Below are positions 1 through 6,955 of a stretch of 34,225 nt of DNA, piece after piece. Both the position numbers and the translations under genes were made by a program. Origin of the DNA: Methyloprofundus sp. (GTDB taxonomy: Bacteria; Pseudomonadota; Gammaproteobacteria; Methylococcales; Methylomonadaceae); contig JACUUF010000031.1 of assembly GCA_014859465.1 (NCBI GenBank), positions 1-34,225 of the forward strand, read 5' to 3'. Position 1 is the first letter of the stretch, and every line of letters starts with the position of its first letter. The notes under the pieces were generated by a model. It ran no database searches. It had not been told where the DNA came from and saw only the letters and a list, made by a program, of their open reading frames with translations.

Positions 1-520
1 AAAACATCCGTATTCCTCGACATAAAACGTTCAAAGAGCAAGCGCAACGCGGCAAGTCATCAACCCGGCTGGTTCTATGGGTTTAAGCTGCATATCATTG
101 TCGATGACCGAGGAGAAATACTGTCATTTGCCATTACTAGAGGGAATGTTGATGATCGAAAGCCCGTGCCGAAGCTAAGCAAAAACATCATAGGCAAGCT
201 TTTTGGTGATAGAGGATACATTTCTAAAAAGCTAACGGAGCTTTTAGCTGCGAATGATGTGGAGCTTATTACGACACTTAAGAAAAATATGCAGCCGAAA
301 GTTATCGCTGCTTTCGATGACCTTTTACTCAAAAAGCGCAGTATTATTGAGACTATTAATGCTCAAGCTGAAAAATGTTTTTCAGCTTGAGCACTCGAGG
401 CACCGCTCGCTTACCAATTATATGATCAATATTGTTGCCTGTTTGGTGGCTTACTCGTATCAGAATAAAAAGTCGACTCTCAAATTACGAAGAGAGGACT
501 TATTGCCGTTACTTGTATAA
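1..520 (+). pseudogene. IS982-type transposase remnant, 5' truncated by the window, two frameshifts
   Basis: The reading frame must be stitched from three frames. Frame 3 carries RIPRHKTFKEQAQRGKSS up to about base 65. Frame 1 then gives WFYGFKLH, the DDRGE and GNVDDRK segments, LFGDRGYIS and KKNM up to about base 366. Frame 2 continues with LKNVFQLEHSRHRS and AYSYQNKKS to a TAA at 518-520. These are hallmarks of IS982-family DDE transposases. Each junction is explained by one extra base, a C among 64-66 and a G near 367, so no intact protein can be made. The aspartate in GDRGY and the glutamate in SIIETIN are probably catalytic residues of the DDE triad, by family analogy. The left end lies outside the window, and I could not fix the right inverted repeat, which would be expected shortly after 520. 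Confidence 0.85.
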
Positions 521-763
521 TGGCTTATCCCTAACTGAGGCCATTTACTAAAAATAAGTTATATGACTTATTTTCAGCTACTTGAACGATAATTAAATTT
601 AAAATTCTATTTTTTAAAACGGCAATGATTGCAGTTGCATTAGTCCTGTATAAAATTTGTACAATCTAATGATAAACCTTTATTCACAAAGGCTTGAGTG
701 AGTTACGCAAAAATAACGCACACTGCTATCCACAGAAAATGTGGGTAACTGTCATTTAGCTGT

Positions 764-830
764 CAGGAGAGCGAGTAACTTGACTTTTTAATTCATGGCA
801 TTTAAAAGTATAAAAGTTGTGTAGAGACCT
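764..830 (+). repeat. Dispersed repeat, partial copy of the 10755-11071 element
   Basis: Aligned without gaps to 10994-11060, this segment matches at 61 of 67 positions by eye. The shared part includes TTTTTAATTCAT, TTTAAAAGTATAAAAG and TTGTGTAG. Only the right part of the element is present here: I found no matching left terminus between 520 and 764. It is therefore either a truncated copy or a fragment carried by another element. Confidence 0.8.
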
Positions 831-896
831 GTGCATTATATGAGGGATAAGGCCACTACTCCACTTTGTTTGCCGTGCTAAATTTTAGACAAAAAA

Positions 897-917
897 AAGG
901 CCTACTAAGTAGGCCTT
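897..917 (-). terminator. Rho-independent terminator after tal (bidirectional)
   Basis: A perfect 9-base stem, AAGGCCTAC (897-905) and GTAGGCCTT (909-917), closes a 3-base loop. It is flanked by an A run on the left and a T run on the right, so it can end transcription on either strand. It lies 25 bases beyond the tal stop codon. Confidence 0.9.
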
Positions 918-942
918 TTTTCTTAGTCGCTTAAAGTAGAAA

Positions 943-2248: not shown

Positions 2249-2863
2249 CTAACGCGCTTGTTGACTCAAGTATTTTTCAACACCGGTTAAAGCAACAACT
2301 GGATCAGCTACCTCATTAATAGCTTCTGCAGCAACTTGCTTTGCAGCACTAGCCTGTTTTGCTAAATATTTAGCTACGCTGCTAGTGGTATGCTTTGGTC
2401 TGCTCTCTAAATACCGAGCAACGCCAGTCGGCTTACTACTCACAACTGCAGGTTTGTTTTTAGCTTCTAATGCCTGTTTAAGCATATATTTACTAACACT
2501 GGTAACTGTTGTTACTTTGCGAGTCGCCAAATATTTAGAAACACCACTTTTGACTGGCTTTGCATCAACATTATCCGCTAAGTATTTTGCTACACCTGTT
2601 GCGCCTTTAACATCAACTTGAGCTTGTTTAGCAGCAATAGCCTGTCTTGCGACATATTTAGCCACACCACTTTTTTGCGCTTGTCCTTGTAGGTATTTTT
2701 CAACACTGCTTGGGCCTCTAGAGATTGTGCTGTGCTCATTTAAATACTTAGCAACTCCAGTCAGCTGCCCATCGGAAGATGCACTTACGCTTTCATCACT
2801 ACGATAAACAGCTTGAGTGGATGATTTTTTACTGGAAAAAATATCTGATATAAAGCCAAACAT
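2249..2863 (-). CDS. Soluble GVxKYL-repeat protein, function unknown
   Basis: I do not recognise this 204-residue protein. It has no signal peptide. A hydrophobic start, MFGFISDIF, could form an amphipathic helix. The rest is nine copies of [GS]V[AES][KR]Y[LMV], starting at residues 36, 53, 66, 90, 107, 122, 147, 162 and 194. They are separated by 13-32 residues of Ala/Lys/Gln/Ser/Thr-rich linker, which looks flexible or helical. The C-terminus, GVEKYLSQQAR, resembles that of the protein encoded just upstream (GVEKYMRNQNRG). Only two bases separate the two genes, and GGGGGTAAGT, formed by the last codons of the upstream gene, can serve as ribosome binding site, so the pair should be translationally coupled. 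Multivalent short motifs suggest binding of a repeated partner or self-assembly; this is inference from architecture. Confidence 0.85.
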   Translation of the reverse strand: MFGFISDIFSSKKSSTQAVYRSDESVSASSDGQLTGVAKYLNEHSTISRGPSSVEKYLQGQAQKSGVAKYVARQAIAAKQAQVDVKGATGVAKYLADNVDAKPVKSGVSKYLATRKVTTVTSVSKYMLKQALEAKNKPAVVSSKPTGVARYLESRPKHTTSSVAKYLAKQASAAKQVAAEAINEVADPVVALTGVEKYLSQQAR

Positions 2864-2865
2864 AC

Positions 2866-3552
2866 TTACCCCCGGTTCTGGTTACGCATATACTTTTCTA
2901 CGCCTGTGGTTTTGTTTGCCGCAGCTTTTTTCTGTTCTACAATTTTTTGAGCAAGATATTTAGCAACACCTGACTTAGGTGTTGGTTGATTTGCCTCTAA
3001 GTATTTTGCTACCCCTGAAAGTTTAGGCGTTTTACTCTGTAAATATTTAGCTACACCAGTTAAACCGTTTGCACTTTCAGTGCTTGCTTTAGTTTTAGTT
3101 TTAGTTATTCCCTTAGATTTTTTAGAGTACAAGAATCCTGCAACCCCTAAAACCACGATAGCAAACAGTGGATTCATTGAAGATTCTGCTTCTGCTTCTG
3201 CTTCTGCTTCAGCTGCAGTCTCAGCGGCCTTTTCTTCTACTTTTTCTGTCCACACAGCTAAAGTAATTGACTCAGAGTTTATCTCTGCTTTTTTATGCTT
3301 ATATTCTGTATCATGATAAAGCACTTCTGGCTGAAAAGTAGCTGCGGGATAATTAGCATCCGGCTTTGTTTTTTCGCCTAAAGGCGCACTTGAACTGTGC
3401 GCCGAAGAAGAGCTTTCATGTTTATAGTCTGTATCTTGGAATAAAACTTTGGGTTGAAAATCCGATGCAGGATAATCATTCGCCGCCATTACAAGAGGAC
3501 TTGCAAGGAATAAGGCTGTAAATAGGCCTTTCTTGATATTATTTTTTTTCAC
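2866..3552 (-). CDS. Membrane-anchored GVxKYL-repeat protein, function unknown
   Basis: Not recognised. The chosen start is GTG at 3552, because AGGTG lies 6 bases upstream; a GTG at 3561 is in frame but has no ribosome binding site. The 228-residue product has these parts in order. A signal peptide (MKKNNIKKGL, then a hydrophobic core) probably cleaves near VMA/AND. Two tandem repeats of the form YPAxxFQPxVLxxDTxYKH lie at about residues 25-46 and 66-87. An acidic Glu/Ala run precedes a membrane segment, PLFAIVVLGVAGFLY, at about 128-142. A basic stretch, KKSKGITKTKTK, follows, and four GVxKY[LM] copies begin at about 166, 180, 195 and 217. The positive-inside rule places the N-terminal repeats in the periplasm and the GVxKYL tail in the cytoplasm, where it can meet the soluble partner encoded downstream. 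It sits directly after tkt in the RuMP block. Confidence 0.85.
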   Translation of the reverse strand: MKKNNIKKGLFTALFLASPLVMAANDYPASDFQPKVLFQDTDYKHESSSSAHSSSAPLGEKTKPDANYPAATFQPEVLYHDTEYKHKKAEINSESITLAVWTEKVEEKAAETAAEAEAEAEAESSMNPLFAIVVLGVAGFLYSKKSKGITKTKTKASTESANGLTGVAKYLQSKTPKLSGVAKYLEANQPTPKSGVAKYLAQKIVEQKKAAANKTTGVEKYMRNQNRG

Positions 3553-3585
3553 GCAATTCACCTATATGTCGTAAGAAACGAAAGA

Positions 3586-3660: not shown

Positions 3661-5646
3661 CTATAAAACTTCTTTTACAGTTTTAACAACGTTTTCAACT
3701 GTGAAACCAAAGTGTTTCATCAATACGTCGCCTGGCGCAGATTCACCAAAGGTATCGATACCAACAACGCCACCCTCTAAGCCAACATATTTACGCCAGA
3801 AGTCAGTAACACCTGCTTCAATCGCAACACGTTTAACACCTGGAGTTAAGATGCTATCTTTATAAGCCTGATCTTGGCGATCAAACACATTAGTCGATGG
3901 CATAGAAACAACGCGAGCGTTAATACCTTCAGCAGCAAGTGCGTCTTGAGCTTTAGCCGCCAAGTCAACTTCAGAACCTGTTGCAATTAAGATAACTTGT
4001 GCATCACCTTTAGCGTCTGACAATACGTATGCACCTTTGCGCATCGCAGTAAAATCAGCAACATCATGTTTACGCCCCGGAATGCCTTGACGACTTAGCA
4101 CTAAGCTAGATGGCCCATCTAAACGCTCAACTGCCGCAGTCCAAGCAACAGCGACCTCAACAGAATCTGCAGGACGCCATACATCCATATTAGGAATGAA
4201 ACGCATTGCAGCAGTGTTTTCAATGGGCTGATGAGTAGGACCGTCTTCACCCTGACCGATAGAGTCATGAGTTAAAACGGCAACCGTACGAATTTTCATC
4301 AATGCAGCCATGCGGAACGCACTTTTCGCATAATCAGAAAACATGTGAAATGTTCCACCGAATGGCATTAAACCACCGTGTAGCGCCATACCATTCATGA
4401 TCGCATACATGCCAAATTCACGTACACCATAAGAGATGTAGTTACCAGGCTCTTTACCGCTCACATGCTTAAAACTTGAACAGCTGGTTAAGTTAGAACC
4501 CGTTAAATCAGCAGAGCCACCTAAAAATTCAGGTAATATCGGCGCTAATGCAGCAATAATTTTTTGTGATGCTTGACGAGAAGCTAATGATTCTGCTTTT
4601 TCGTTAGTATCAGCAATCATTGCATCTGTTGCTGCTTTCCAGTTTGCTGGTAATTCTTTCGCCATACGACGCTTGAATTCAGCCGCTAATTCTGGAAATT
4701 CTTTTGCATAAGCTGCAAACTTAGCATTCCAAGCAGATTCTTTTTCAGCGCCCGCAGCTTTAGCATCCCAACCAGCATAAATATCAGCAGGAATTTCAAA
4801 AGGAGCAGGAGTCCAACCTAACTCTTTACGTGTTAGCGCTACTTCTTCGTCGCCTAATGCAGCACCATGACAGTCATGACTACCAGATTTATTTGGTGAA
4901 CCGAAACCGATGATTGTTTTACAACAAATCATAGAAGGCTTATCTTTAACTGCTTTAGCTAGAACAATGGCTGCATTAATTGCATCGGCATCGTGCCCAT
5001 CCACAGAAATAACATGCCAACCGTAAGACTCAAAACGTCTAACAGTGTCATCTGTATACCAGCCATCGATGTGACCATCAATAGATATATTATTGTTATC
5101 CCAGAACGCAATTAAATTACCCAAGCCCCATGTTCCCGCTAAAGAGCAAGCCTCATGAGAAATGCCTTCCATCAAGCACCCATCACCTAAAAACACATAA
5201 GTGTGGTGATTAACTATATCATACCCAGGACGATTGAATTCGTTAGCTAATAACTTTTCAGCCATAGCAAAACCAACACCGTTAGTTATACCTTGGCCTA
5301 GAGGACCTGTTGTTGTTTCAATACCAGGCGCATAACCATACTCAGGGTGACCAGCACATTTTGAGTGTAATTGACGGAATGTTTTTAATTCATCCATAGG
5401 CAGGTCGTAACCTGACAAATGTAATAATGAATAAATTAACATAGATCCATGACCATTAGATAGCACGAAACGATCGCGATCAGACCATTCTGGATTCGTT
5501 GGATTATGTTTTAAATGATCATTCCATAATACTTCAGCGATATCCGCCATACCCATAGGTGCGCCAGGATGACCTGATTTTGCTTTTTGAACAGCATCCA
5601 TGCTCAAAGCGCGTATGGCGTTCGCAAGTTCTCTACGCGAAGACAT
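3661..5646 (-). CDS. tkt: Transketolase
   Basis: This 661-residue protein is a full-length TktA-type transketolase. It moves two-carbon ketol units between sugar phosphates using thiamine diphosphate and a divalent metal. The cofactor motif starts at GDGCLMEG (residues 154-161) and ends at NNN (184-186). SGHPGAPMG near the N-terminus and [16 protein letters not shown] in the central domain are family signatures. In the RuMP cycle it joins with transaldolase to rebuild ribulose 5-phosphate from fructose 6-phosphate and triose phosphate. The ATG at 5646 has AGGAGA 6 bases upstream. A strong terminator separates it from phi, so it is probably transcribed from its own promoter in the 5647-5738 interval. 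Confidence 0.97.
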
Positions 5647-5768: not shown

Positions 5769-6302
5769 CTATTCCATGTTAGCGTGTCTCTCTCTCATTA
5801 TCTCTTCTGGAATACCTTTCTCATGAATAATATGAGAAACAGTAGACTCTAGAAATAATAATGTTGACAATTCAAATACTGTTCCCATAGGCATACCCTT
5901 CACTTTAGCGTACATATCAGGAGTACCGATCTGGAACACACCATCAGCTAAATCAGCGATAGTTGACTCGCTTTTTGCAGAGATCAACACAATATCAGCG
6001 CCAACTTCTTTCGCTTTCTTTGTAAAGGCAATCAACTGTTCAGTCTCACCAGAGCCTGAAATAATAATTAATAAATCACCTTGTTTAATGCTTGGCGTGA
6101 CAATCTCACCTACAACACTAACATCGTAACCGCTGTGTACTAATCTCATGGCAAAAAAGTTACCCACAAGTTTAGAACGACCAGCACCCGCTAGAAAGAT
6201 ACGATTTGCTTTATCAAGCATTGCTGTCAACTTTTCATCATATGAATCATCAGTTGCAGCAAGAATACTTGTTAATTTATCTACGACAAGTTGTTGATGC
6301 AT
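5769..6302 (-). CDS. hxlB: 6-phospho-3-hexuloisomerase
   Basis: This enzyme, often called phi in methylotrophs, isomerises 3-hexulose 6-phosphate, the product of hps, to fructose 6-phosphate. The 177-residue protein is a single SIS (sugar isomerase) domain of normal family length. The phosphate-binding loops are GAGRSKLV (39-46) and ISGSGETE (81-88), and the C-terminal ERHANME segment is typical of the family. The gene starts 11 bases after the hps stop, with AGGA 8 bases before its ATG, so the two form an operon. It ends just before a strong terminator. The pairing with hps separates it from other SIS proteins such as the diaA product encoded at 7805. Confidence 0.95.
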   Translation of the reverse strand: MHQQLVVDKLTSILAATDDSYDEKLTAMLDKANRIFLAGAGRSKLVGNFFAMRLVHSGYDVSVVGEIVTPSIKQGDLLIIISGSGETEQLIAFTKKAKEVGADIVLISAKSESTIADLADGVFQIGTPDMYAKVKGMPMGTVFELSTLLFLESTVSHIIHEKGIPEEIMRERHANME

Positions 6303-6313
6303 AATATCAATCC

Positions 6314-6955
6314 TTATGCAGCGTCAACTAATTCACGAATTTCGCGAGCCGCTTGAGCAGGAGATGCTGCACCATAGATAGCTGCACCCACAACAATAAT
6401 GTCTGCACCAGCACGAACTACGTCTTGAACTGTCGCTTGGTTAATGCCGCCAGCAACAGAAACACGCACATTCAAGCCTAAGTCAGCAATTAATGCTAAG
6501 TCATTGAATGGTGTATGACCTGCTGCTTGTGCATCAAGACCTGTGTGCACACCAACGATCTGTGCGCCAGCTTCTACAGTTGCACGTGCACATGCTGCTT
6601 TATCGTCAACATTGATTAAATCAATTTGAGCTTCTGCACCATGAGCGTTTGCTGCTGCAATAACACCTTTACAAGTTGCTAATCCTGAAACACCCAATAC
6701 TGTACAGATATCTGCACCAGCAGCATAAAAAGGAGTTGCTTCGTATTCGCCAGCATCCATTGTTTTAAGGTCAACTAATAACAATTTGTTTGGAAATCTA
6801 GCTTTTAATTCTTTTACTAAGTTAATACCATTGTGTTTGATACATGGTGTACCGATTTCGAAGATATCAATTGATTCGGCTACTTGCTCAGCAAGTGCGA
6901 TAGTTGCGTCGAAATCTAAAGAATCTAATGCCATTTGAATTAATGGTGTTGCCAT
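6314..6955 (-). CDS. hxlA: 3-hexulose-6-phosphate synthase
   Basis: This enzyme, often called hps, condenses formaldehyde with ribulose 5-phosphate. It is the formaldehyde-fixing step of the RuMP pathway and the strongest metabolic marker in the window. The 213-residue protein is a TIM barrel of the orotidine-5'-phosphate decarboxylase superfamily. The superfamily's metal and catalytic D-x-K-x-x-D motif is seen as DLKTMD (62-67), and FEIGTPCIKHNG and VSVAGGIN are phosphate- and substrate-binding segments. The ATG has GGAG 8 bases upstream. phi follows after 11 bases. A good candidate promoter lies at 7016-7044, so the pair should be transcribed independently of the dolP cluster. Confidence 0.96.
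   Translation of the reverse strand: MATPLIQMALDSLDFDATIALAEQVAESIDIFEIGTPCIKHNGINLVKELKARFPNKLLLVDLKTMDAGEYEATPFYAAGADICTVLGVSGLATCKGVIAAANAHGAEAQIDLINVDDKAACARATVEAGAQIVGVHTGLDAQAAGHTPFNDLALIADLGLNVRVSVAGGINQATVQDVVRAGADIIVVGAAIYGAASPAQAAREIRELVDAA

Follow-up and report, generated by a model that had tools for sequence, protein, structure and literature searches.

What do two adjacent genes that repeat one short motif many times do inside the RuMP gene block of Methyloprofundus sp.? The pair, here called A and B, lies in the window, that is, the whole stretch of 34,225 nucleotides analysed (contig JACUUF010000031.1). In many methane- and methanol-using bacteria, such motif-studded, floppy proteins encoded beside hps probably gather the formaldehyde-fixing enzymes at the membrane, by a binding that we infer.

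Architecture of A and B

Gene A (2249–2863, minus strand) encoded a soluble protein of 204 aa, and gene B (2866–3561, minus strand) a protein of 231 aa. The start codon of B was GTG at 3561 or at 3552, the latter being used in the first-pass annotation. On the minus strand B ended at 2866 and A started at 2863, leaving a gap of two bases. The pattern [GS]V[AES][KR]Y[LMV] was found nine times in A, at residues 36, 53, 66, 90, 107, 122, 147, 162 and 194, the copies being 13–32 residues apart: GVAKYL (2741–2758), SVEKYL (2690–2707), GVAKYV (2651–2668), GVAKYL (2579–2596), GVSKYL (2528–2545), SVSKYM (2483–2500), GVARYL (2408–2425), SVAKYL (2363–2380) and GVEKYL (2267–2284), all on the minus strand. 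Four copies spaced by 14–22 residues were found in B, at residues 169, 183, 198 and 220: GVAKYL (3040–3057), GVAKYL (2998–3015), GVAKYL (2953–2970) and GVEKYM (2887–2904), again on the minus strand and all C-terminal to the single membrane segment. When each protein was shuffled 20,000 times with its composition preserved, the mean motif count was 0.0019 for A and 0.00065 for B, and the maximum was 1. Pattern search and shuffles thus agreed with the first-pass description of two genes, two bases apart, with the motif nine times in a soluble protein and four times in the tail of a membrane protein. The common C-terminal end GVEKY[LM]xxQxR described there was also present, as GVEKYLSQQAR in A and GVEKYMRNQNRG in B. 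The two proteins had been called otherwise dissimilar; this was correct outside the repeats, while the repeats let A find B at an E value of 1e-6.

From the N- to the C-terminus, B consisted of a signal-like stretch, two predicted periplasmic repeats, an acidic Ala/Ser/Glu-rich spacer, a membrane segment, a basic stretch and the four motifs. The N-terminus was hydrophobic and signal-peptide-like as judged by eye, and the membrane segment (3124–3180, minus strand; residues 128–146) had a Kyte-Doolittle value of 1.62 over 19 residues. Since acidic residues preceded the membrane segment and basic residues followed it, the motif tail should be cytoplasmic; the sequence predicts a topology with the periplasmic repeats outside and the motifs inside.

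A opened with a hydrophobic/amphipathic stretch, MFGFISDIFSS (2831–2863, minus strand), with a hydrophobic moment of 0.41 and a mean hydrophobicity of 0.55. Among 18 N-terminal peptides tried, 12, including that of the window's A, had a moment of at least 0.35 together with a mean hydrophobicity of at least 0.3. The N-terminus of A may touch the membrane, and the amphipathic stretch was absent from some relatives.

Conservation in Methylomonadaceae and the periplasmic repeat of B

At E ≤ 0.001, matches to B were found in 148 of 151 genomes of the same family and matches to A in 131 of the 151, part of the latter being due to the repeats in common with B (own genome included in both counts). 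All 30 aligned B proteins, drawn from across the family, shared one layout: the N-terminus was hydrophobic, a single membrane segment followed, and the part behind this segment was more positively charged than the part in front and held all the motifs. In an alignment of 23 A proteins, 13 columns were invariant, every one of them a V or Y of a motif copy; eight further columns were nearly invariant, with A168 and V185 lying outside the core motif. The length of A ranged from about 200 to 540 residues across relatives, some of which have as many as 17 motif copies, against nine in the window.

The periplasmic part of B had a repeat of its own, YPA..FQPxVL(Y/F)xDxxYK, present twice (residues 30 and 71). 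Its copies, YPASDFQPKVLFQDTDYK (3421–3474, minus strand) and YPAATFQPEVLYHDTEYK (3298–3351, minus strand), were marked by column conservation in the aligned B proteins: of the eight invariant columns among the 30, four lay in the first repeat.

Two copies of this repeat (YPAANFQPKVIYxD) also made up a small secreted protein adjoining ABC transporter genes (L149:8677–8910, G000:C12). The same double-repeat protein, with neither membrane segment nor motif tail, was seen in L151, L152, L153, L156, L157 and L187. Its ABC neighbours were a permease and an ATPase (L149) and an NMT1/THI5-like binding protein (L152).

Periplasmic repeats with a membrane segment and no motif were observed in lineages f6 and f2 (L169:8276–9031, L179:8317–9054, L320:2668–3195, L171:1004–1648), the f6 form being read in three cases (L169, L179, L320). 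The tail end of the f6 protein was very basic, e.g. KTKRSRRR. It is possible that the motif-less protein of f6 and f2 is an older form of B.

Database and literature searches

Neither A nor B matched any Pfam or NCBIfam family over the cut-off, in keeping with the first-pass annotation, which had recognised no described family. Against PHROGs only weak matches were obtained, the best (E 0.0019) being phrog_37261, of unknown function. Pfam, NCBIfam and PHROGs thus yielded no annotated family that would give A or B an unrelated role. A had no match among PDB sequences up to E 10. When the own genome was searched with the A alignment at E ≤ 10, A and B were the only matches and no ChpA-like match was obtained. 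Viral contigs contained matches to the motif pattern, and tblastn found no relative in them. The A/B family is undescribed in the libraries searched.

DAPIT is subunit k of the mitochondrial ATP synthase, a single-copy membrane subunit, and resembles the motif in the short stretch TG[VI]xKY[LF]N. Membership in the corresponding family, PF14960 (ATP_synth_reg), was rejected: A scored 17.2 bits and the Methylophaga form described below 18.4 bits, against a gathering score of 25.

Among published titles and the opening parts of abstracts, nothing was found on A/B-type proteins or on membrane-bound Hps. Passages of PMC9445010 and PMC6548844 likewise contained nothing on A/B-type proteins. A duplicated RuMP locus of Methylococcus is described in PMC517821 and PMC8527097, with no mention of A/B genes in the excerpts of these papers. 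The word "metabolon" in an excerpt of PMC5802761 referred to a company.

Gene order and linkage to hps

In the window the minus-strand order was hps, phi, tkt, B, A, tal. The gene for 3-hexulose-6-phosphate synthase, hps (6314–6955, minus strand), scored over the cut-off of TIGR03128. We take 5769–6302 to be phi (6-phospho-3-hexuloisomerase), 3661–5646 to be tkt (transketolase) and 943–1968 to be tal (transaldolase), all on the minus strand, from general knowledge of these families and, for phi, also from its position.

Frames in 40 regions from across the own family were labelled by BLAST against the window's proteins; eight of these regions were cut by contig ends (L067, L068, L092–L095, L097, L098). 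The full order hps-phi-tkt-B-A-tal was found in 19 of the 40, and hps-phi-tkt-B-tal with no A between in 11 (L064, L071, L072, L077, L078, L084, L089, L090, L091, L096, L099), of which L096 had a second B-like gene within the stretch. A lay behind another hps set in seven regions, as hps-phi-tkt-A (L071, L096, L099), as hps-phi-A (L077, L078) or, in two of the 40, in second hps-tkt sets with A (L073, L079).

In L071 (G010), three hps-phi-tkt sets stood in line; behind two of them came A genes identical to each other, and behind the third came B. A frame of about 359 aa often followed tal, and the one tested (L069) was a class II fructose-bisphosphate aldolase. Beyond tal in the window (1–942) there were short frames only, one resembling a transposase remnant by eye, and no aldolase-like frame of the kind found after tal in numerous other genera. 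Three regions of the same genus (L087, L088, L101) had another long frame, not the aldolase-like one, directly beyond tal.

Neighbours were counted in regions chosen by motif or B-alignment match, around 107 distinct motif-rich frames that were no longer than 1,200 aa and had at least 4 kb on both sides. For this count 18 duplicate motif-rich frames were removed (160 to 142), five frames over 1,200 aa were set apart, and L235–L254 (picked around hps) and L315–L323 (retrieved afterwards) were excluded. hps lay within 5 kb of 105 of the 107, phi of 103, tal of 90 and tkt of 75, making hps the most constant neighbour and the other three conserved ones. The 107 are not independent events, because an operon with both genes enters the count twice and many of the species are closely related. 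Of the 137 shorter frames, the remaining 30 had less than 4 kb on one side; hps was within 5 kb of 14 of them and not of 16. L321, outside the count, had a motif protein beside hps.

In family f4 the gene order differs, but B was again close to hps: six of 13 motif genes stood directly before hps, and by position hps was no more than 5 kb away from 14 of the 15 motif-rich frames. The link to RuMP genes suggested by the first-pass annotation was thus seen in the family, in the order and in a separate lineage, and homologues consistently placed away from methylotrophy genes, which would have spoken against it, were not the rule (105 of 107 near hps).

The Methylophaga lineage and co-occurrence with hps

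In a class-wide sample, the B alignment matched six of 369 genomes, three from the own order and three from family f10, which comprises Methylophaga and kin. hps over the TIGR03128 cut-off was present in exactly these six, so that the co-occurrence with hps which the first-pass annotation had proposed to examine was observed. The chance of an identical six of 369 would be about 3e-13 if genomes were independent; because the six form only two lineages, the coincidence amounts to about two events.

The Methylophaga motif gene encoded a soluble protein of about 100 to 200 aa with no signal or membrane segment by eye, opening with a conserved MSxKGFFASICxFFKGLFSS (26 sequences). The gene order was hps, motif gene, tal, hps, phi; the motif gene was directly after hps in 10 of 11 cases and before tal in all 11. 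At E ≤ 0.01 a motif match was found in 52 of 57 f10 genomes, a number that includes G1065 (main match on a foreign-looking methanotroph contig, L225), G1070 (a 1,903-aa frame only) and G1108 (a 60-aa frame with a stop). hps was present in all 19 genomes with a motif match that were tested. Four of the five f10 genomes with no motif match had no hps (G1057, 100% complete; G1060, G1063 and G1072, 75–86%), and the fifth, 55% complete, had hps.

A scan of 84,980 species with two peptide patterns for the Methylophaga form picked out 56 stretches, and 40 loci were confirmed. These were assigned to Methylophaga, Methylophagaceae or Piscirickettsiaceae, Methylovulum, other Methylococcales, or only to Gammaproteobacteria/Pseudomonadota; the patterns are narrow, and wider motif forms in other taxa would escape them.

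hps was also found without the motif. Family f206, possibly Methylophilaceae, had a motif match in none of 80 genomes, and hps in all 18 tested there and in G938. In f188, two genomes had hps over the cut-off and no motif match, and three f4 genomes (G171, G177, G191) likewise had hps and no motif match; another f4 genome, G186, had a short protein with a signal and a membrane segment and no motif. In f6, all six genomes tested had hps, and the B-like protein there was without the motif; the motif contig of one f6 genome (G166) was identical in protein to that of G152 and is probably foreign. In f7 and f8, of the same order, six genomes tested had no hps, and no motif-family match was found at E ≤ 1e-4 or better than E 0.04. 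Three f2 genomes tested had no hps. Across the samples covered, the motif thus accompanies hps, but hps, as in f206, f188, f4 and f6, does not need the motif.

ChpA-like kinases and unlinked motif proteins

The motif was also found in a Methylophaga kinase resembling the pilus chemosensory kinase ChpA, where it occupied the inter-domain linkers, with 4–6 copies in the four proteins read (L160, L222, L223, L224). With L294 included, such motif kinases had 3–6 copies. The motif-bearing ChpA-like protein of f10 was 1,800 to 2,050 aa long, and 28 of the 57 f10 genomes, counted by eye, had a match in a frame of at least 1,300 aa at E ≤ 0.01. Pfam identified Hpt, HATPase_c, CheW and receiver domains in L223, and this type of protein was named ChpA because of its domains and neighbours.

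Four motif proteins (L178, L180, L315, L316) had no RuMP genes in the stretch examined; L178 and L180 are the two of the 107 with no hps within 5 kb. The one at L316:2734–3519 (G004), away from hps, had five motif copies and a Cys-containing C-terminal extension (STLKGTQCKNTT...), and it gave no Pfam match up to E 0.1. G203 encodes an hps-linked motif protein and, not linked to hps, a further one at L315:6980–7663, with seven copies and a membrane segment by eye.

From the placement between tkt and tal, the first-pass annotation had raised the possibility that the partner of the motif is a RuMP enzyme. The first-pass interpretation is partly supported, and the neighbour counts sharpen it: hps, with 105 of 107, was more constant than phi (103), tal (90) or tkt (75). 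A role restricted to RuMP enzymes is opposed by the ChpA repeats and the four unlinked motif proteins. ChpA is no RuMP protein, and nothing weighs more heavily against a RuMP-only use of the motif than its repeats, which equally offer another starting point in the search for the common partner.

The motif unit and its predicted structure

A unit T[GS]Vx[KR]Y[LI]xxQ recurred in the own family, in f4, in the small f10 proteins and in f10 ChpA. The own family supplied 444 distinct units for the profiles, f4 33, the small f10 proteins 47 and f10 ChpA 17. The profiles read T/S, G/S, V, x, K/R, Y, L/I/V/M, x, x and often Q, V and Y being fixed by the search pattern and the leading T/S and the Q not; the median distance between units was 17 to 20 residues.

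AlphaFold was run on the Methylophaga form with 26 sequences. Helices were predicted at residues 5–18, 45–55, 62–72, 79–89 and 95–103, corresponding to the N-terminal helix and one helix for each of the four motifs. The pLDDT was 66–77 in the motif part, the pTM was 0.22 and the helices had no fixed arrangement. This model, made on the Methylophaga form, fits motif copies that would be short helices on a flexible string, like beads.

A single chain joining Hps and the motif protein of a Methylophaga relative was also modelled (L273, with 22 Hps rows; the stops separating the two genes were translated through). Hps was folded confidently, the pLDDT was below 50 at residues 218–380 and no confident docking of the motif on the Hps monomer was obtained. 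As a test of docking this is weak: the joining stretch does not exist as protein in the cell, Hps forms dimers and was modelled here as a monomer, and only Hps was tried.

Discussion

What was found in A and B is what a multivalent linker would have: many copies of a short motif on a flexible chain with no tertiary fold (the folding as modelled on the Methylophaga form), and co-occurrence and linkage with a candidate client enzyme (105 of 107 near hps, and the same six of 369 genomes). We propose that A and B are flexible multivalent tethers of the RuMP pathway, whose motif helices would dock on a RuMP enzyme, most likely Hps or Hps-Phi. We put the chances of this proposal at about even, with the partner, the clustering and the benefit all part of what is inferred. 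Each T/S-G/S-V-x-K/R-Y-L-x-x-Q copy would form a short helix, and the face bearing V, Y, L and Q would dock on a single site of the enzyme. B would cross the membrane once and keep its four copies in the cytoplasm; A would contribute many copies, and a short hydrophobic helix at its N-terminus may bring it into contact with the membrane. Between them, A and B would draw Hps and partner enzymes into a cluster on the cytoplasmic or intracytoplasmic membrane, close to where formaldehyde arises in the periplasm, so that formaldehyde would be fixed before spreading. The linkage to hps is unusually clean; the mechanism is the conjectural part.

The occurrence of the motif in ChpA can be read in another way. 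The motif might dock on a general hub, such as a chaperone-like protein or an organiser of the cell pole or the membrane; A and B would then recruit the hub to the RuMP enzymes through a different contact, and ChpA would share it. The motif-bearing kinase, with long-frame matches in 28 of 57 f10 genomes, and the four motif proteins away from RuMP genes would suit such a hub, but it leaves unexplained why 105 of 107 motif genes lie by hps and why the same six of 369 genomes have both; we regard it as rather unlikely. The motifs might also bind each other, A and B forming a homotypic matrix at the membrane in which the enzymes are held otherwise or not at all. That one and the same motif, each copy a predicted helix, occurs in A, B and ChpA is in line with this, whereas the AlphaFold model of the four-motif protein, in which the helices had no fixed packing (pTM 0.22), speaks against it, and we consider a matrix of this kind quite improbable.

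The periplasmic part of B raises the further idea of a transmembrane sensor, whose periplasmic repeats would detect methanol oxidation or a partner in the periplasm and whose motifs would relay this to the RuMP enzymes, with ChpA of Methylophaga coupling pili to the RuMP state. It would account for the concentration of four of the eight invariant B columns in the first periplasmic repeat, for the recurrence of this repeat in the small secreted protein encoded next to ABC transporter genes, and for the motif in a sensory kinase. Yet the hps-linked form of Methylophaga has no periplasmic part, so the motif is used there without it, and no enzymatic or signalling domain scored over the cut-off in A or B (Pfam, NCBIfam); a sensor is, in our judgement, very doubtful. 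Little probability is likewise given to A and B being physically unrelated to the RuMP enzymes, for example shaping or labelling membranes, and being in the operon for matched expression only. Binding to RuMP enzymes is putative, and membrane proteins with the periplasmic repeat and no motif exist in f6 and f2 (f2 being without hps in the three genomes tested), as such a view would have it, but the linkage to hps survives operon break-up, duplication and a separate lineage with another gene order.

The proposal that A and B tether RuMP enzymes can be extended to a membrane-spanning RuMP metabolon. In it the periplasmic repeats of B would reach to where methanol is oxidised, in the periplasm or in the lumen of the intracytoplasmic membranes, while the motifs of B and the many copies in A would hold Hps, Phi, Tkt and Tal as a condensed layer on the inner face, and formaldehyde would be fixed at entry; in Methylophaga the motif would also tie in the pilus kinase ChpA, coupling movement to fixation. 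As a whole this extension is speculative and probably goes too far.

EPYC1 and CsoS2 are disordered multivalent linkers of Rubisco. Like A and B, they combine a low-complexity chain and many regularly spaced, helix-forming short motifs, and they go with an enzyme of C1 fixation; to this extent A and B would act in a similar manner. A and B differ from them in that the client would be a RuMP enzyme, that one member is a membrane protein and that no pyrenoid or shell is known. No sequence relation to them was seen in the searches of A against PDB to E 10 and of A and B against Pfam and NCBIfam. Formaldehyde-fixing enzymes have been held together by engineering, in Hps-Phi-Mdh fusions and assemblies that, according to an excerpt of PMC8879981, are meant to channel formaldehyde; those are man-made, and A and B are proposed as a natural and possibly equivalent device. 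The fused Hps-Phi of Methylococcus, as described in an excerpt of PMC8527097, is another way to keep the two enzymes together, by covalent fusion, unlike A and B. Long hps frames (from about 395 aa upwards), assumed from their length only to be such fusions, were found at a distance from the motif genes in each of three genomes compared (G180, G203, G153).

How methylotrophs handle toxic, freely diffusing formaldehyde is an old question, and in the 1970s the Hps of type I methanotrophs was reportedly partly particulate, in line with the tether proposal. A conserved, operon-encoded family of tethers would make the question of particulate Hps directly testable. If the proposal is true, A, B and their relatives would be a natural scaffold for RuMP enzymes, found across Methylophaga and many methane oxidisers of the order Methylococcales. 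Synthetic methylotrophy, in which artificial assemblies of these enzymes are already being made (excerpt of PMC8879981), would then have a tool ready for use.
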